This document shows, in pieces, positions 17,272-24,281 of a stretch of DNA of 64,000 nucleotides (its first letter is position 1; every line of letters starts with the position of its first letter). Under the pieces are notes generated by a model that made no database searches, had not been told where the DNA came from, and was given only the letters and a program-made list of their open reading frames with translations. The stretch comes from Bryocella elongata. Lineage in GTDB: Bacteria > Acidobacteriota > Terriglobia > Terriglobales > Acidobacteriaceae. Made by a program: the position numbers and the translations under genes. The DNA lies in contig NZ_FNVA01000008.1 in assembly GCF_900108185.1 (NCBI RefSeq), positions 1 through 64,000 on the forward strand, read 5' to 3'.

Positions 17272-19821
17272 TTAGTACGCGCTGCCGAGTGCGAGATCGA
17301 TGAGGGTCTTCTCTTCCATCTCGTGGGCCTTGGCGGAGCCTGTTGCGGGGCTTGCGGATGCGGTACGCGTGATCTTGAGCACGGGGCGGCCTCGCGAGAG
17401 GCGCTTGAGGCGCGGCATCACGAAGTTGCATGCGCCCTGGTTGGCAGGCTCTTCCTGCACCCAGACGATCTCCTGGGCGCGGCCGTGCATGTCGAGCGCC
17501 GCCTGCAGCTCAGCCTCGGGCCAGGGATAGAGCTGGTCGATGAAGATGATGGCGACGCGCGGCTTGCCTTCCTGCTTGCCGTCGAGGCCACGCTTGGCGC
17601 GCTCGACGCGGAGGTTGTGGCCGATCTTGCCGGTGCACAGCAGCACGCGCTGCGGCGCGCGGACCACCGTGTCGGGAATGACCATCTGGAACTGGTCGGC
17701 AGCGAGATCAGGCACGGTCGACATCGCGTCGGGATGACGCAGCATCGACTTCGGGGTAAAGACGATGAGCGGCTTGCGCCACTTGCGCAGAGCCTGGCGA
17801 CGCAGCAGGTGGAAGTACTGGGCTGCTGTCGAAGGCTGCGTGACCTGGATGTTGGCTTGCGCGGAGAGCTGAAGATAGCGCTCGATGCGAGCCGAGGAAT
17901 GCTCCGGGCCCTGGCCTTCGTAGCCGTGAGGCAGCAGCATGGTCACGCCCGAGAGCAGGCCCCACTTGGCTTCGCCCGCGGTGATGAACTGGTCGATGAT
18001 GATCTGCGCGCCGTTGGCGAAGTCGCCGAACTGGGCTTCCCACAGCACGAGCGCTTCGGGATAGTCGCGGGCGAAGCCATACTCGAAGCCGAGGCAAGCG
18101 GCCTCGGAGAGCATGGAGTTGTACACCTGCCAGCGGCCCTGTTCAGGAGCGACATTGCTCAAGGGCGACCAGCGGGCTTCGGTCTCCGTGTCGATCAGCA
18201 CCGAGTGGCGCTGGTTGAACGTGCCGCGCTGCGAGTCCTGCCCTGTGAGACGAACGGGGATGCCAGCCTTGAGCAGCGACGAGTAGGCGAGCAGCTCGGC
18301 CATGCCGTAGTCCATGGGCTTCTTGTTGTTGCCCATGTCGACGCGCTGCTCGAGCAGCTTGGCGACCTTGGGGTGAACGTGGAAGCCCTCGGGAGCTGTG
18401 GTGAGAGTCTTCGTGAGGGAGGCAATCTCCTCGGCGCCGATCGCGGTGCTGGGATTGTCTTCCGGACGCAGCGCGCCGCCGTAGAAGCTGTTCCAGTACT
18501 CGGGCAGCTCGTGCAGGTGCGGCTTGACCTTGGCCTGCGAGGCGGCCTTCTGGTCGGTCAGCATCTCCTGCTGCACAGCGGTCGCTTCGGGCGCAGCGTC
18601 AACGCCGATCTTCTCGGCATAGATCTTGTAGAGCGCGGCGTGATCCTTGATGAGAGCGTAGCGGCGGGGCTGCGTGACTGTCGGGTCGTCGACTTCGGAG
18701 TGGCCGTGACGACGATAGCCGATGAGGTCGATGACGACGTCGGAGCCGAAGGCGTGACGGTACTCTGCCGCGAGCATGGCGATGCGCAGCACGGCATCGG
18801 GGTCTTCCGCGTTGACGTGGAAGATCGGGATGGGCAGGCGCTTGGCGAGATCCGACGAGAAGCGCGAGGAGTTGGACTCCTCGGGGTTGGCCGTGAAGCC
18901 GAGCAGGTTGTTGGTGATGATCTGCAGCGTGCCGCCGACGTTGTAGCCATCGAGCGAGGCAAGGTTCAGCGTCTCGGCGGTGATGCCCTGGCCGGCGAAG
19001 GCAGCGTCGCCGTGGATGACGAGCGGCAGCACCTGCTTCGTGCCCTCGGCACCGATACGTTCCTGCCAGGCACGCGCGCGGCCGATGATGACGGGGTTTG
19101 TGGCCTCGAGGTGCGAGGGATTCGACGCAAGGTGCAGGCTGACGGTCTTGCCCGAGGGCGTGACCAGGTCGCCGGTTGCGCCCTTGTGGTACTTCACGTC
19201 GCCGCCACCCATGATGGAGCGCGGATCGACGTCCTCGAAGTTGGTGAAGATCTCTTCCGCGGTGCGGCCGATGGTGTTCACCATCACGTTGAGGCGGCCA
19301 CGATGCGCCATCGCAAAGAGGGCGCGTGTGACGCCGAGCTCTGCCGACGTGACGAAGATCTGATCGAGGAAAGGAATCAGCGAGGTCAGGCCTTCCAGCG
19401 AGAAGCGCTTGGTGCCGAGGTAGCGCTGCTGTGCTACCTGCTCGAAGAGATCGGCCTTAATCAGCAGAGAGAGCGTGCGCTTCTGATCGACCTCAGGCTG
19501 CGGGCCTTCGAGGCGCTGCTGAATCCAGGCACGCTTCTCAGGCGAAGCGATGTGCATGAACTCGGCGCCGATGGAGCCGCAGTAGACGCGACGCGCTTCA
19601 GCGGCGACGGCTTCAAACTCGGGACCATCGGGGATGGAGAGCGGAAAAGGCTCGGGTGCGAGGTACTGGCCGAGAGGATCGAGCGACGCCTGCAGGAAGC
19701 CCCAACGGCGGAAGACGTCGAACACTGTCTCGCGTACGAGGTCGTCTCTCAGGGACTCCGCTCGCTGCGGGGAAGGCTTGGAAGGTCGTGTGGCGGACGA
19801 GGTAGCCATAGCATCTCTCAT
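17272..19821 (-). CDS. sucA: 2-oxoglutarate dehydrogenase E1 component
   Basis: This 849-residue thiamine-diphosphate enzyme decarboxylates 2-oxoglutarate in the TCA cycle. Visible motifs include MAHRGRLNVM, GDVKYHKG, SLHLASNPSHLEATNPV, HGDAAFAGQG and YRRHGHSEVDDPT, then QFGDFANGAQIIIDQF in the transketolase-like half. The length is about 80 residues shorter than the E. coli protein, with the loss mainly at the N-terminus. ATG at 19821 (AGGAC upstream) is chosen; ATG at 19809 is possible. No sucB or lpd gene is adjacent. Confidence 0.96.
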   Translation of the reverse strand: MRDAMATSSATRPSKPSPQRAESLRDDLVRETVFDVFRRWGFLQASLDPLGQYLAPEPFPLSIPDGPEFEAVAAEARRVYCGSIGAEFMHIASPEKRAWIQQRLEGPQPEVDQKRTLSLLIKADLFEQVAQQRYLGTKRFSLEGLTSLIPFLDQIFVTSAELGVTRALFAMAHRGRLNVMVNTIGRTAEEIFTNFEDVDPRSIMGGGDVKYHKGATGDLVTPSGKTVSLHLASNPSHLEATNPVIIGRARAWQERIGAEGTKQVLPLVIHGDAAFAGQGITAETLNLASLDGYNVGGTLQIITNNLLGFTANPEESNSSRFSSDLAKRLPIPIFHVNAEDPDAVLRIAMLAAEYRHAFGSDVVIDLIGYRRHGHSEVDDPTVTQPRRYALIKDHAALYKIYAEKIGVDAAPEATAVQQEMLTDQKAASQAKVKPHLHELPEYWNSFYGGALRPEDNPSTAIGAEEIASLTKTLTTAPEGFHVHPKVAKLLEQRVDMGNNKKPMDYGMAELLAYSSLLKAGIPVRLTGQDSQRGTFNQRHSVLIDTETEARWSPLSNVAPEQGRWQVYNSMLSEAACLGFEYGFARDYPEALVLWEAQFGDFANGAQIIIDQFITAGEAKWGLLSGVTMLLPHGYEGQGPEHSSARIERYLQLSAQANIQVTQPSTAAQYFHLLRRQALRKWRKPLIVFTPKSMLRHPDAMSTVPDLAADQFQMVIPDTVVRAPQRVLLCTGKIGHNLRVERAKRGLDGKQEGKPRVAIIFIDQLYPWPEAELQAALDMHGRAQEIVWVQEEPANQGACNFVMPRLKRLSRGRPVLKITRTASASPATGSAKAHEMEEKTLIDLALGSAY

Positions 19822-20083
19822 GTTAGTCCTGCATACATGGTGTTTTCGAGTGTCGTCCGATATTCGGGCGAGATAGTGGCATTTCCGCACACTCAAACTG
19901 GCCTCGAAATCACGCCCGAAGGCACGACAAGACGAAGCTGGTTTGTGCCATTTGGCCGCAGAAACGGCCGCAGAATTGTTCGCGAAGGGACGAAGCGCTG
20001 AAAACGGTAGGGTTACGGTGCGCGGCTGTGAGGTCCTTGCAAGGCAAACGAACACGGAGCAGGTAGACTGCTCGCACCTCATC

Positions 20084-20833
20084 GTGGCGACGATCTTCCA
20101 TCCCGCGTTGCACCCGCTTTTTGAGTCGCTGGGGTATGCGGCGGGCTTTGCAGTGTATCGCGGGTTGCGGTCGCGGCAAGGGGACGCTCTCGACGATGAG
20201 CGCCGCTGGATGGTGATTGCGGCGGCGGCGGTCGGTGGACTGGTTGGCAGCCGGGTGCTGGGCGTGGCCGAGCAGGCTCCTGCCATGGGGCTTCATCTGG
20301 CCATGTTCTTTGCCTCGGGAGGCAAGACCATCGTTGGCGGTCTGCTGGGTGGATGGGCAGGCGTGGAGCTTGCGAAGTTTGCGATGAAGATGAAGCGCCG
20401 CACTGGCGACCTCTTTGCGATCCCGCTGTGTGTTGGCATCGCGGTGGGGCGGCTGGGCTGCTTCTTCGCCGGGCTTGCCGACGATACGTATGGCACACCG
20501 ACGTCGCTGCCGTGGGGCGTGAACTTTGGCGATGGTGCGCGGCGTCATCCTACGCAGCTGTATGAGTTTTTTTCCCTCGCCATCCTCGCTGCGGTTCTGT
20601 GGTGGATGAAGCGGAGGCCGCATCGTGAGGGGCAGCTCTTCCGCATCTTCATGGCAGCCTATCTTGCGTGGAGGCTGGCGATTGATTTCATTAAGCCGCA
20701 GCCGCTGATTGGTGGGATGAATGTCATCCAGTGGGCGTGTGCTGCGGGGATTTGCGTGATCGCGTGCGGCGCAATTCGAACCGGGGTGTGGCGGCTTCGC
20801 GCTGAGGATACGGCGCGAGCCGGAGGAACGTGA
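20084..20833 (+). CDS. Lgt-like membrane diacylglyceryl transferase family protein, non-canonical
   Basis: This multi-span membrane protein of about 250 residues has prolipoprotein diacylglyceryl transferase hallmarks: GGKTIVGGLLGGWAGVE, GRLGCFFAG and RHPTQLYE. In E. coli Lgt the second motif reads GRIGNFxNGE; here Asn is replaced by Cys and the following Glu by Leu, so normal lipoprotein modification is doubtful. The family takes a diacylglycerol moiety from phosphatidylglycerol. The start is uncertain: GTG at 20084 or 20018, or ATG at 19943, are all in frame. Its last 4 nt overlap the next gene (GTGA), so translation is coupled. It heads an operon ending in a Tes-like radical SAM enzyme. 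Confidence 0.8.
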   Translation: MATIFHPALHPLFESLGYAAGFAVYRGLRSRQGDALDDERRWMVIAAAAVGGLVGSRVLGVAEQAPAMGLHLAMFFASGGKTIVGGLLGGWAGVELAKFAMKMKRRTGDLFAIPLCVGIAVGRLGCFFAGLADDTYGTPTSLPWGVNFGDGARRHPTQLYEFFSLAILAAVLWWMKRRPHREGQLFRIFMAAYLAWRLAIDFIKPQPLIGGMNVIQWACAAGICVIACGAIRTGVWRLRAEDTARAGGT

Positions 20834-21063
20834 GCATGGCAGACGGAAGACGAACGTGGGGCGCGAAGATCCTGGTAGCGGCGGCGTTATCTCTGCTGCT
20901 GAGCTTTGGAATGTGCGGAGCAGCGCTGCTCAATCCGGCGAAGACGGAGAGCGCCCGCGGGTATCTATTTGTGGCGGGTATCGCTTGCCTCGGACTGGTT
21001 GCGGTGCTGGTGATCGTGGGGATGATTGTGCTCATCGTGGAATCGCAGCGAAACTCGGAGTAG
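20830..21063 (+). CDS. Small two-span membrane protein, paralogue 1
   Basis: This 77-residue protein has two hydrophobic helices (about 12-33 and 43-68) and a GxKILVAAALSL-type first helix. It resembles the next gene in length, topology and start of helix 1 (W-G-A-K-I-L versus W-I-G-P-K-I-L), so the two look like a tandem duplication. GTG at 20830 overlaps the Lgt-like stop; ATG at 20836 is the alternative. No known family. It may be a subunit or scaffold for the flanking lipid enzymes. Confidence 0.72.
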   Translation: MSMADGRRTWGAKILVAAALSLLLSFGMCGAALLNPAKTESARGYLFVAGIACLGLVAVLVIVGMIVLIVESQRNSE

Positions 21064-21070
21064 GTGAGCC

Positions 21071-21337
21071 ATGTTCGATCAGTTTCAAAACCGTAACAAC
21101 CGCCCCGGCGAACCTCGCTGGATTGGACCGAAGATTCTTGCAGGCGCGGCGGTCGGGTTGCTGGTCGCTGCGGGCTTGTGTGGTGCGGGATCGTTGCAGG
21201 GGCGCGGCAACGAGGAGTTCGGCGGCCCAATGAGCATGATCGGCTTCGGGGTCTTCCTGTTGACGGTGGTGGTGCTGCTCATCGGGGGCCTGGTGTTTGT
21301 GGTGGAGTTGATTCTCAGCGCAAGGCGAAGGGGCTAA
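21071..21337 (+). CDS. Small two-span membrane protein, paralogue 2
   Basis: This 88-residue protein has an Asn/Arg/Pro-rich N-terminus, then two hydrophobic helices (about 20-41 and 57-81) ending in RRRG. GGTGAG lies just upstream of the ATG. It follows paralogue 1 by 7 nt and precedes the radical SAM gene by 6 nt. Function is unknown; position suggests a membrane partner of the radical SAM enzyme. Confidence 0.75.
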   Translation: MFDQFQNRNNRPGEPRWIGPKILAGAAVGLLVAAGLCGAGSLQGRGNEEFGGPMSMIGFGVFLLTVVVLLIGGLVFVVELILSARRRG

Positions 21338-21343
21338 ACATCG

Positions 21344-22756
21344 ATGGCAAAGACACGGGACTATCTCTTCTACGACACGGCAGTCTCGTTGTGCACCACG
21401 TGCTTTCAGCGTGTGGACGCAAAGATCGTCTTTGAGGACGGCAACGTCTGGATGCTGAAGCGCTGTCCGCAGCATGGGTTCGAGCGTGTGCTGATGGCGG
21501 ATGATGTGGATTACTATCGCCGCTGCCGCGAGCTGTTTCTGAAGAAGCCGGAGATGCCTCAGCAGTACAACACTCCCATCAAGTATGGCTGTCCGTATGA
21601 CTGCGGTCTGTGCCCGGACCATGAGCAGCACTCGTGCCTGACGCTGATCGAGATCTGCGATGCCTGCAACCTGAATTGCCCGGTCTGCTACGCGGAGAGC
21701 GGAACGCATCGCACCACCTTCCGCACGATGGAAGAGATCGAGCGGATGCTCGACGCTGTGGTGCGCAACGAGATGGAGCCGGACGTGGTGCAGATCTCAG
21801 GCGGCGAGCCAACGATCCATCCGCAGTTCTTCGAGGTACTCGACGCAGCGAAGAAGCGGCCCATCAAGCACCTGATGGTGAACACGAACGGTGTGCGCAT
21901 CGCCACGGAAGACGGCTTCGCGGAGCGGTTGGCGGAGTACATGCCGCACCTGGAACTCTATCTGCAGTTCGACTCGCTGGGGCGAGAAGCGTTGATGCAG
22001 CTGCGGGGGGCGGACCTGCGCAGTGTGCGGTTGAAGGCTCTCGAAAGGCTGAACAAACTCAACCTGTCGACGACGCTCGTGGTGACGGTGGAACGTGGCG
22101 TCAATGACAACGAGATGGGAGCCATCGTGGACTTCGCGCTGCAGCAGCCCTGTGTTCGCGGCGTGACGTTCCAGCCGGTGCAGCAGGCGGGAAGGCTTGC
22201 GGGCTACGATCGCGAGCAGCACCGGCTAACGTTGAGTGAGGTGAGGCGGCGTATCCTCGAGCAGACGAACGTCTTTCGGCCTGAGGACCTGATCCCGGTG
22301 CCGTGTCATCCGGACAGCCTGGCAATGGCGTATGCGATGAAGCTCGAGGGCAAGGTGGTGCCGCTGACGGGGATGATCGAGCCGGATGTGCTGATCAACG
22401 CAGGGCGCAACACGATTGTGTACGAGCAGGACGAAGCGATTCGCGGGCACCTGTTCAAGCTCTTCGCGACGAACCACTCGCCGATGTCGCAGGCGAGCAC
22501 GCTGCGGGAGCTGCTGTGTTGCCTGCCGCAGGTGCTGGCGCCGCGCAAGCTGGGCTACAACAACCTGTTCCGCATCCTGATCGTGCAGTTCATCGATGCG
22601 CAGAGCTTCGATCTGCGGTCGATCAAGAAGACGTGTGTGCACATCGCGCATCCGGATGGGAAGCGACTGATACCGTTCGACACGTACAACATGTTCTATC
22701 GCGATGAGCTGGAGGAGAAGCGTCTAGGGCCTTTGCGGGAGCGGGTGATGGCGTAG
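21344..22756 (+). CDS. Radical SAM enzyme of the MJ0619/tetraether-synthase (Tes) type
   Basis: This 470-residue protein has an N-terminal cysteine-rich region (C17xxC20, C41PQHG, then C83PYDCGLCPDH with C83, C87, C90 and C98). The radical SAM triad C108NLNCPVC115 binds the 4Fe-4S cluster that cleaves SAM, and ISGGEPTIHP is the SAM-binding GGE motif. The CPxDCGLCPxH...CL block just before the triad is the pattern I associate with MJ0619-like proteins, which include archaeal tetraether synthase and bacterial membrane-spanning lipid synthase candidates. It would join lipid tails through C-C bonds, a reaction known in Acidobacteriota that make iso-diabolic acid or branched tetraethers. It is last in a four-gene operon with an Lgt-like protein. 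The exact substrate is inference. Confidence 0.82.
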   Translation: MAKTRDYLFYDTAVSLCTTCFQRVDAKIVFEDGNVWMLKRCPQHGFERVLMADDVDYYRRCRELFLKKPEMPQQYNTPIKYGCPYDCGLCPDHEQHSCLTLIEICDACNLNCPVCYAESGTHRTTFRTMEEIERMLDAVVRNEMEPDVVQISGGEPTIHPQFFEVLDAAKKRPIKHLMVNTNGVRIATEDGFAERLAEYMPHLELYLQFDSLGREALMQLRGADLRSVRLKALERLNKLNLSTTLVVTVERGVNDNEMGAIVDFALQQPCVRGVTFQPVQQAGRLAGYDREQHRLTLSEVRRRILEQTNVFRPEDLIPVPCHPDSLAMAYAMKLEGKVVPLTGMIEPDVLINAGRNTIVYEQDEAIRGHLFKLFATNHSPMSQASTLRELLCCLPQVLAPRKLGYNNLFRILIVQFIDAQSFDLRSIKKTCVHIAHPDGKRLIPFDTYNMFYRDELEEKRLGPLRERVMA

Positions 22757-22766
22757 TCGCTGGTGG

Positions 22767-24281
22767 TCAGTGGCTCAAGGGTGCATCAAAGGGAAGGAAG
22801 ACCGCGAAGACCGTCCCGTGGTGCGTTGGGCTGGTGCTGGATCGCACACGGAGGCTGCCCTGGTGGCGTTCCATGATGCCAGCGGAGATCCAGAGTCCAA
22901 GTCCTGTGCCGGACATTCCCTTGGTGGTGAAGAAGGCCTCGAAGATCCGCTTGAGGGTCATGGCATCGATGCCGCAGCCAGTGTCCGCCACGGTAAGGAC
23001 GAGGCCTTTGCGTGGCGCGCTGCCATCGCGTCCGGAAGCCCAGTCCGTGGCTTCGCGAGAACGCAGCAGCAGGCGTCCTCCTGTCGGCATGGCGTCGATC
23101 GCATTGCTGACGAGGTTGTGGAGCACCTGGCGAATGTCGCCTTCAAAGCAGACGACGCGGCGTTCGGCCCGGCGACGCCTTTCCACACGAATGGCTGAGT
23201 GCCGCAGACGGCCTTCGTAAAGGCTTACGACGGTGTTATAGAGATCGTCGGAGTCGACGGCGCGGGGCGCCGAGGGCTGCTTGTGGAAGCGCAGCGTCTG
23301 GTTGGCGATGATGGATACCCGCCGCAACTCGCGGTCGGCGATCTCCAGGTATTCGCGGACGACGGGGTTGTTGCTCTCAGACTTCGCGAGAAAAAGCAGG
23401 TTGGTGACTGACTCCAGCGGGTTGTTGATCTCGTGGGCGATCGATGCAGCGAGGCGCCCGACCGCGGCGAGCTTTTCTGACTGCATCAATGCGAGGTCGC
23501 TCTTCTTCTGGTGCGTGACCTCGATGGTGGCTGTAGCCACGGCGCGGACCTCGCCATCTTCGCCGAATACCGGCGTGTAGTTCGCGGTCCAATGGCGATG
23601 CTCCTCCGGCCGACGGGCAAGGGCTCCTTCAAGGGACATATTGAGGATGCGCTCTCCTTCGGCAGCCCGGCGCATGTAGGTAATTCCGGTGGGCACACCT
23701 TCGACGAGATCCTCGAAGCGCATGCCAACGGCGCGCTTCGCATCGACATCGAAGATCTCCGCCTGGCGGTCGTTGATTCGCAGCAGGCGCAGGTTCTTCG
23801 CGTCGTAAAGGGCCATGCCGATGGGGGCTCCGCGATAGACCGCTTCCGCCTCCTGCCGTTGACGATCGATCTCCCGAGTGGCTGCATCGCGAGCCTCCTC
23901 AGCTTTGTGCGCGTCGGTGACATCGCGGTAGTAGAGAGCGATGCCGCCGTCAACGGGGAAGATGTGGATGGTCTCCCAGAGATCGAAGGGCTCGTAATGA
24001 AACGCAGGCAGCGTCTGCGGCTTCCGGGAAAACATCACCTCGTGGTATGCCGTTTCGATCAGGCTACCGATGGTGTCGGGATAGAGCTCCCAATGCGTGG
24101 GGCCGTTGAGGTCTTCGTCACGCAGGCGGCTGATGCGCCTCGCCTCACGGTTGGCGTAGACGATGCGCCAGTCCCGATCCATGATGACGAGTCCATCCGG
24201 AAGCGATTCGGCAAGCTCCATGAGCATGCTGACCGTCTCCGGATGGAGGCTTGTGTTGGCGAGTTCGGGAGGCGGCTTCAC
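22767..24281 (-). CDS. PAS-domain sensor histidine kinase
   Basis: This 504-residue protein has two PAS-like domains (about 20-140, DGLVIMDRDWRIVYANREA, and 150-275) with a short coiled coil between them. The HisKA dimer helix IAHEINNPLESV follows near residue 290. The ATPase domain shows NLVSNAIDAM, DTGCGI and GTGLGLWIS. No membrane span is seen, so it is cytoplasmic. The start is GTG at 24281, with CTGGAG 5 nt upstream. No response regulator is adjacent, so it is an orphan kinase. It is divergent from the RNase II-type gene and converges on the radical SAM gene with 10 nt between. Confidence 0.9.
   Translation of the reverse strand: MKPPPELANTSLHPETVSMLMELAESLPDGLVIMDRDWRIVYANREARRISRLRDEDLNGPTHWELYPDTIGSLIETAYHEVMFSRKPQTLPAFHYEPFDLWETIHIFPVDGGIALYYRDVTDAHKAEEARDAATREIDRQRQEAEAVYRGAPIGMALYDAKNLRLLRINDRQAEIFDVDAKRAVGMRFEDLVEGVPTGITYMRRAAEGERILNMSLEGALARRPEEHRHWTANYTPVFGEDGEVRAVATATIEVTHQKKSDLALMQSEKLAAVGRLAASIAHEINNPLESVTNLLFLAKSESNNPVVREYLEIADRELRRVSIIANQTLRFHKQPSAPRAVDSDDLYNTVVSLYEGRLRHSAIRVERRRRAERRVVCFEGDIRQVLHNLVSNAIDAMPTGGRLLLRSREATDWASGRDGSAPRKGLVLTVADTGCGIDAMTLKRIFEAFFTTKGMSGTGLGLWISAGIMERHQGSLRVRSSTSPTHHGTVFAVFLPFDAPLSH

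Follow-up and report, generated by a model that had tools for sequence, protein, structure and literature searches.

The 64,000-nucleotide stretch of Bryocella elongata DNA analysed here (the window) is part of contig 16 in a genome of 5.67 Mb and carries four open reading frames (ORFs) in a row that encode a membrane enzyme of the prolipoprotein diacylglyceryl transferase (Lgt) superfamily, two small membrane proteins and a radical S-adenosylmethionine (SAM) protein (Table 1). A first-pass annotation had described four genes with overlaps or gaps of at most 7 nt, and the ORFs bear this out, with a 4-nt overlap between genes 1 and 2, a 7-nt gap between genes 2 and 3 and a 6-nt gap between genes 3 and 4; an alternative ATG start at 20836 would shorten the first small protein to 75 amino acids (aa). 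The same annotation took the operon for a candidate unit of membrane-spanning lipid synthesis. Judged by comparison with its relatives, the operon represents a three-component membrane module that is widespread and patchily distributed. We are highly confident that this module is a functional unit, and it is probably a membrane-lipid modification system not described before.

Table 1. Coordinates of the genes and motifs of the unit, numbered by position in the window
Feature	Position	Strand	Basis or remark
Whole unit, four ORFs in a row	20084..22756	+	
Lgt-like (prolipoprotein diacylglyceryl transferase superfamily) membrane enzyme, 249 aa	20084..20833	+	GTG start; PF01790
Small two-transmembrane protein 1, 77 aa, Cys at end of first transmembrane segment	20830..21063	+	ORF; motif SLLLSFGM-C-G
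Cys codon of small protein 1, 16 residues past Lys, proposed acceptor	20914..20916	+	Codon read
Small two-transmembrane protein 2, 88 aa, 34% identical to protein 1	21071..21337	+	ORF, alignment
Cys codon of small protein 2 (GLLVAAGL-C-G), proposed acceptor	21179..21181	+	Codon read
Tes-fold radical SAM protein, 470 aa, clade distinct from Tes	21344..22756	+	Hidden Markov models, alignment, tree, structure model
N-terminal rubredoxin/zinc-ribbon-type domain (C17, C20, C41, H44)	21368..21499	+	PF23545, 67.6 bits
N-terminal auxiliary cluster block C83-X3-C87-X2-C90-X2-H93	21590..21622	+	Invariant in 54/54 rows
Radical SAM CX3CX2C (C108, C112, C115)	21665..21688	+	Alignment
LCCLP motif with C392, C393	22514..22528	+	Alignment of family rows

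When ORFs of at least 60 aa around 21 acidobacterial loci were clustered, the Lgt-like gene was the one common neighbour of the radical SAM gene. The flanking genes were rejected as parts of the unit, as none besides the two enzymes and overlapping shadow ORFs occurred in more than four of the 21 loci. Linkage was then counted over 134 family loci outside the window, which comprise three partly overlapping sets of 80, 20 and 34; these loci are related to one another, and at least two of them belong to both the first and the second set (judged by length, L052/L093 and L050/L091 represent identical contigs, and the Lgt genes of L052 and L093 are 99.6% alike). An Lgt-type gene lies near the radical SAM gene in 115 of them (66/80, 18/20 and 31/34), several of the loci without one being cut by contig ends. 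A small multi-transmembrane protein with a conserved cysteine is nearby in 86 (54/80, 12/20 and 20/34), and in 84 of these 86 loci the Lgt gene is present as well. At 36 control loci around tetraether synthase (Tes) and other paralogs, the counts were one and zero, respectively, the sole control with an Lgt-type gene being L061, a long-branch row that groups with the window clade in the tree. The controls comprise 20 acidobacterial Tes or other paralogs and 16 archaeal Tes loci, the latter with about 1.5 kb of flank or less; all ORFs were found mechanically, and L097, which has no clean radical SAM ORF, entered the final linkage counts only. A simple sigma-70 consensus scan gave no promoter in 19700-23000, and Rfam and tRNA scans gave nothing of use for the unit.

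The unit, whose gene order the first-pass annotation had proposed to survey within Acidobacteriota, is conserved far beyond that phylum. When 84,980 species, each represented by one genome, were searched with 18 aligned acidobacterial sequences, at least 577 relatives of the radical SAM protein were returned at E <= 1e-3, perhaps not all of the window clade. The best 80 (58-86% identity) come, by their record titles, from at least six bacterial phyla and from Marine Group II (MG-II) archaea; the phyla are Acidobacteriota, Bacillota (Paenibacillus, Brevibacillus, Aeribacillus, Fictibacillus and Bacillus), Pseudomonadota, Bacteroidota, Cyanobacteriota and Planctomycetota, with single records from Omnitrophota, Elusimicrobia and Myxococcota, plus two MG-II archaea. 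Among the matches listed, the nearest named relatives are Granulicella sapmiensis (a metagenome-assembled genome, 86%) and Paracidobacterium acidisoli (82%). In genome samples drawn evenly from each phylum, each including its own seed genome, the radical SAM gene was present at E <= 1e-120 in 18/247 genomes of the Mucilaginibacter phylum, 2/299 of the Paenibacillus phylum, 10/349 of the Pelomonas phylum and 8/194 of the Cylindrospermum phylum; of 396 genomes of Acidobacteriota, 22 have it at an identity of at least 60%, and one more has a fragment. Because the spread is thin and wide at high identity, it suggests horizontal transfer. A plasmid search at E 1e-60 returned two records, one of 56% identity. 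The two MG-II archaea (L132 and L149; Thalassarchaeaceae and Poseidoniales) carry the Lgt/radical SAM pair, and neither genome has a Tes above the cut-off. Within Creative Commons-licensed PMC papers, no study of an Lgt/radical SAM unit was found by title or abstract start.

The product of gene 4 matches the Radical_SAM and HMPTM zinc ribbon families of Pfam. Its cysteine blocks (C17-X2-C20...C41-X2-H44; C83-X3-C87-X2-C90-X2-H93...C98; C108-X3-C112-X2-C115) are not a chance pattern, because C17, C20, C41, C83, C87, C90, H93, C98, C108, C112 and C115 are invariant in all 54 rows of the family alignment (alignment A4, the window and relatives from 53 of the 80 loci, also used for the LCCLP count and the structure); the block ahead of the radical SAM motif, to which the first-pass annotation had drawn attention, is present as described. 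The structure model (predicted local distance difference test score (pLDDT) 86.3, with residues 347-382 and 387-399 below 50) superimposes on the Tes crystal structures 7tom/7tol with a template modelling score (TM-score) of 0.82, the next match reaching 0.39, and a sequence comparison with solved structures likewise puts Tes first (E 4.8e-70). With Tes (GDGT-MAS, MJ0619; NF045702), to which it is 28-33% identical, the window protein shares the fold, the rubredoxin-type domain in the same zinc-ribbon spacing (C9X2C12X20C33X2H36 in Tes), the N-terminal cluster block (C73, C77 and C80 plus a His in Tes, equivalent to C83, C87 and C90) and the CX3CX2C motif. It differs in having C98 and LCCLP, in lacking Met439, Tyr459 and two C-terminal cysteines, and in its operon with an Lgt-like gene and small proteins.

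These comparisons bear on the earlier assignment to the MJ0619-type tetraether synthases, for which profile and structure checks had been recommended; the Tes fold was recovered by these checks, but membership of Tes was not. The window protein scores 278.1 bits against the Tes model NF045702, for which the cut-off is 450, and its best stretch covers positions 3-318 of the 486-position profile. The positions of Met439, Tyr459 and the two C-terminal cysteines are occupied by V, I, T and D, whereas three acidobacterial Tes rows and a 708-aa protein discussed below have Met and Tyr at those columns. Lloyd et al. report that Met439 and Tyr459 are completely conserved in 1000 archaeal Tes homologues and that Tes M439A is active in vitro; because of this activity, the loss of Met439 alone is not decisive and serves to mark the family rather than to prove that function has been lost. 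In the tree, an 18-row Tes side (10 archaeal rows, 7 bacterial rows and the 708-aa protein) is separated from the window family by a branch of length 1.44 with a support of 100 in the Shimodaira-Hasegawa-like approximate likelihood-ratio test (SH-aLRT). This was a quick tree of 77 rows with midpoint rooting and no bootstrap, and the 708-aa row sits on a long branch, so that its placement is unsure. We rejected the window protein as a Tes on the score, the replaced residues and the separate clade. It was likewise rejected as TrsS, which we compared by model only: NF045646 is its best-scoring curated model, at 312.7 bits over positions 3-432 of 441 against a cut-off of 490; four family members from other groups score 308-337, and none of 140 genomes has a protein over the TrsS cut-off. 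Reportedly, Sahonero-Canavesi et al. named in 2022 a bacterial membrane-spanning lipid synthase, Mss. By description, the only basis on which we compared it, Mss shares the Tes catalytic architecture and acts on phosphatidylglycerol-bearing lipids (PMC13274423). Tes itself is known to bind two phospholipids by their tails, and Lloyd et al. (2022) note that IPR034474 homologues occur in bacteria not known for biphytanyl chains.

According to the first-pass annotation, the radical SAM enzyme would couple two iso-C15 acyl tails into iso-diabolic acid or precursors of branched glycerol dialkyl glycerol tetraethers (brGDGTs), fed by the Lgt-like enzyme. The Tes fold and the rank of Tes as the nearest solved structure favour this reading, as do the acidobacterial Tes homologues listed by Zeng et al. 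(PMC8941075), one of which, 32% identical, belongs to the brGDGT-producing E. aggregans. In addition, Solibacter usitatus, which is reported to make brGDGTs without iso-diabolic acid and to have two Tes homologues, indicates that gene and lipid need not simply coincide. However, the Tes score, the replaced residues and the SH-aLRT 100 separation stand against it, and so does the distribution of the gene. Carriers at 60% identity or more are six of the 44 genomes of the window's family that were listed with any match, and among these six the match in G233 starts at residue 59 with no Lgt gene and that in G084 is in two pieces; two of the three genomes of the window's own genus lack the gene. 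Against this scarcity, iso-diabolic acid is reported in most cultures of subdivisions 1 and 3, with S. usitatus as one known exception: an examination of 17 such cultures gave 20-40% of fatty acids, as cited in a 2026 paper (PMC13274423), and an Edaphobacter description gives 11.8-30.4% in six strains. Moreover, none of the ten genomes of other groups that carry the radical SAM gene has a Tes over the cut-off. The diabolic-acid maker Thermotoga maritima, one of 14 control genomes, gave no match to the Tes (E 1e-40), TrsS (E 1e-60) or HMPTM-zinc-ribbon (E 1e-5) models. Further background is found in PMC9433317, PMC11868695, PMC10087280, PMC11354219, PMC8788747, PMC8689077 and PMC13188914.

The same genome encodes a 708-aa Tes-like radical SAM protein (contig 7, 386975-389101; L005:6976-9102), which also weighs against the tetraether function of the window gene. 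It spans nearly the whole Tes profile (positions 2-483 of 486, at 313 bits, itself below 450) and keeps Met439, Tyr459 and the C-terminal Cys, without the N-terminal cluster cysteines. At E <= 1e-100 it is present in 51 of 60 family genomes and in 42 of the 48 good ones. A further match of about 34% identity occurs in G073, G121 and G265 of the 44 family genomes; the one such match that was scanned (L075) lies over the Tes cut-off, as does L068 of another acidobacterium. By these sequence criteria, the 708-aa protein is a better candidate for iso-diabolic acid synthesis in Acidobacteriaceae than the window gene. The window protein is probably not the iso-diabolic acid synthase, the long-sought synthase of membrane-spanning lipids is probably not to be found in this unit, and we consider the coupling of two iso-C15 tails by it distinctly improbable. 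The idea of a membrane-spanning lipid synthesis unit is thus undercut in part by the distribution of the gene. Bacterial Tes homologues, named acidobacterial ones included, have already been proposed as brGDGT makers (Zeng et al. 2022; PMC8941075).

Within the window family, the LCCLP cysteine pair (C392, C393) is present in all 45 Lgt-linked rows (the window and 44 others) and missing in five of the nine Lgt-less rows; these five form one clade (L113, L116, L121, L128 and L146). No Lgt-like gene is near these five genes, some contigs ending close upstream. Downstream, four of the five have an ORF of DUF547 type, as scanned in two of them, and four have an ORF that by eye looks like a methyltransferase. 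The pair may therefore serve the Lgt-linked reaction, as far as one clade and a loop of low model confidence can indicate. A separate group of relatives of the radical SAM protein, at about 38-42% identity (L059, L060 and L062), lies near a methyltransferase, which in L060 scores 131.9 bits against NF045667 (the DVU_1556 family; cut-off 155). This neighbourhood presumably recalls those of the TrsS genes.

The first gene had been assigned to the Lgt family, and at the level of the superfamily this holds: the protein scores 100.3 bits against PF01790 (cut-off 24.9) and stays below the Lgt equivalog cut-off (TIGR00544, 56.1 against 118.9 bits). Its N terminus reads VATIFHPALHPLFE in the window and MATIFHPEWHPLFE in L079, the closest named relative. 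It shares with Lgt the GRxG and RHPxQLYE motifs, and by motif alignment its R123, Y193 and R197 correspond to Arg143, Tyr235 and Arg239 of E. coli Lgt; these residues are invariant in all 50 rows of the Lgt alignment (alignment A5, 49 of the 80 loci and the window). A review places the three E. coli residues in the active site with phosphatidylglycerol, and they are three of the four active-site residues that it names as crucial. Residues specific to the paralog family are E95, K98, D109, D150 (invariant) and K204, and the AlphaFold model has a pLDDT of 94.8. The gene was rejected as the genome's only Lgt, as the genome has three PF01790 matches. One of these, on contig 15 (40030-40728; L009), is a third, more degenerate Lgt-superfamily protein that scores 66.5 bits and lacks the GRxG arginine.

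The small multi-transmembrane proteins, which the first-pass annotation had taken for two helpers, are real, but they may be substrates, given their conserved Cys and variable copy number. They are about 60-160 aa long and occur in one to three copies per locus. In Terriglobia their genes lie between those of the two enzymes; in many Bacillota, Bacteroidota and cyanobacteria they follow the radical SAM gene, and in some betaproteobacteria they are upstream. Small protein 1 of the window has no Pfam match over the cut-off, and even at E 0.01 neither Pfam nor NCBIfam gives one; 47 small proteins gave scattered weak matches only in these two databases, with at most two members per model. One to three copies and no convincing family fit a substrate role. 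The common feature is a cysteine close to the outer end of a helix, in the setting GLCG or SLCG in Terriglobia and betaproteobacteria, LLNAACFG in Bacillota and IGFSTC in Bacteroidota. A motif rule was devised after inspection of the 80-locus set and the window. Of the adjacent small ORFs it fits 61 of 69, versus 8 of 53 small two-transmembrane ORFs elsewhere in the same loci; shuffling within the transmembrane segments gave a mean of 21.5 fits and a maximum of 30 in 200 trials. Applied unchanged to other loci, the rule fitted 13 of 19 ORFs, a count that missed some ORFs with over-long starts, and 22 of 31; the final linkage count uses a better choice of starts.

When repeated motif stretches are removed from the 61 motif proteins, 57 motifs remain. 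In 51 of these, the first charged residue upstream of the Cys is a K or an R, and in 54 the distance is 16-25 residues (16 in both window proteins). The 12 residues ahead of the hydrophobic run have a positive net charge in 50 motifs, and G, A or S occupies position -2 in 55, this position being partly selected by the rule. By the positive-inside rule, the charge ahead of the hydrophobic run places the Cys at the outer face of the membrane, as a prediction from sequence. A lipoprotein signal peptide, according to a review, has a K/R start, an h-region and a lipobox Cys near the outer surface, and averages 16-26 residues. The small proteins resemble such signal peptides in their K/R, hydrophobic stretch and outer-end Cys, whereas their motif differs from the canonical lipobox.

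Small, divergent and sometimes tandem proteins next to a radical SAM gene could also be ribosomal precursors, in which the enzyme would bond the Cys or the backbone and the Lgt paralog would anchor the product; the peptide maturases SkfB and SuiB are indeed the next structural neighbours after Tes. Nevertheless, Tes is by far the best match (TM-score 0.82 versus 0.39), the Cys is predicted on the outer side and thus away from a cytosolic enzyme, and Pfam at E <= 1 gave no PqqD-like recognition domain. Peptide maturation is therefore an unlikely function of the module.

We propose instead, as a tentative reading, that the three components act together on a lipid. The Lgt paralog would move diacylglycerol off phosphatidylglycerol, a donor assumed from its family. 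The acceptor would most likely be the thiol of the small-protein Cys, so that an S-diacylglyceryl proteolipid would form without cleavage; the radical SAM enzyme would then modify, from the inner side, a lipid tail of this proteolipid or of a neighbouring phospholipid. In favour of this reading are the linkage of the three components, the signal-peptide-like geometry around the Cys, the invariant Arg and Tyr columns of the Lgt site, the variable copy number of the small proteins, the binding of two phospholipids by Tes and the acyltransferase-like gene of five betaproteobacterial loci described below. Several observations weigh against it. The column of E. coli His103, the proposed catalytic His, holds V, I or L in all 50 rows and that of Asn146 holds Cys in all 50; the genome's own higher-scoring Lgt (contig 4) has Tyr and Cys at the same columns. 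Foldseek with the Lgt-like model gave no Lgt structure among the best 50 of 276 matches, the best E being 0.19. The lipobox consensus [LV][ASTVI][GAS]C is unmet in the window motifs (FGM-C and AGL-C), and 20 of the 57 motifs have L and 11 have T at position -1, which is not a canonical lipobox. The alignment of 47 small proteins, at 12% mean identity, is too divergent for covariation tests. Of the 115 loci with an Lgt gene, 31 showed no motif protein in the vicinity, among them the two MG-II archaeal loci in the 80-locus set and several acidobacterial loci that are complete. Finally, the site of Lgt action is the outer side of the membrane, whereas radical SAM enzymes act inside; the two steps therefore need a lipid that reaches both sides.

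In another version, the acceptor of the diacylglycerol is a small molecule, either a thiol or a head group; the radical SAM enzyme would build or alter this head group, and the Cys protein would be a scaffold that keeps the cytosolic enzyme at the membrane. The loci without a motif protein fit this version, as does the far better conservation of the two enzymes (mean column identity 64% for the radical SAM protein, 43% for the Lgt-like protein and 12% for the small proteins), and the Lgt-less clade has other genes downstream. On the other hand, a scaffold would not need the recurring outer-end Cys. We regard this version as possible but doubtful. The proteolipid mechanism can also be extended to a new class of protein-lipid hybrid, in which the Tes-fold enzyme would weld a tail of the Cys anchor to the tail of an inner-leaflet phospholipid, making a membrane-spanning proteolipid encoded by a mobile cassette across many bacterial phyla; this is a speculation with a very slim chance of being right.

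Whichever chemistry applies, a conserved cassette in several phyla, with no Tes over the cut-off in the ten genomes checked, points to a lipid or proteolipid modification that is absent from the papers found. Searches at 30% identity and E 1e-30, as described in two published studies, could miscount such genes as those of tetraether or brGDGT makers, and such miscounts matter for climate-proxy work. Around the module, five of the 80 loci, all betaproteobacterial (L135, L139, L142, L143 and L153), have an upstream gene that falls into one sequence cluster; its member in L142, the one scanned, encodes a fusion of major facilitator superfamily and acyltransferase domains that resembles the acyl-ACP phospholipid O-acyltransferase/LplT fusion. 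At L133, L144 and L153, an ORF between the Lgt-like and radical SAM genes opens like a lipoprotein signal (GTGC or LQAC).

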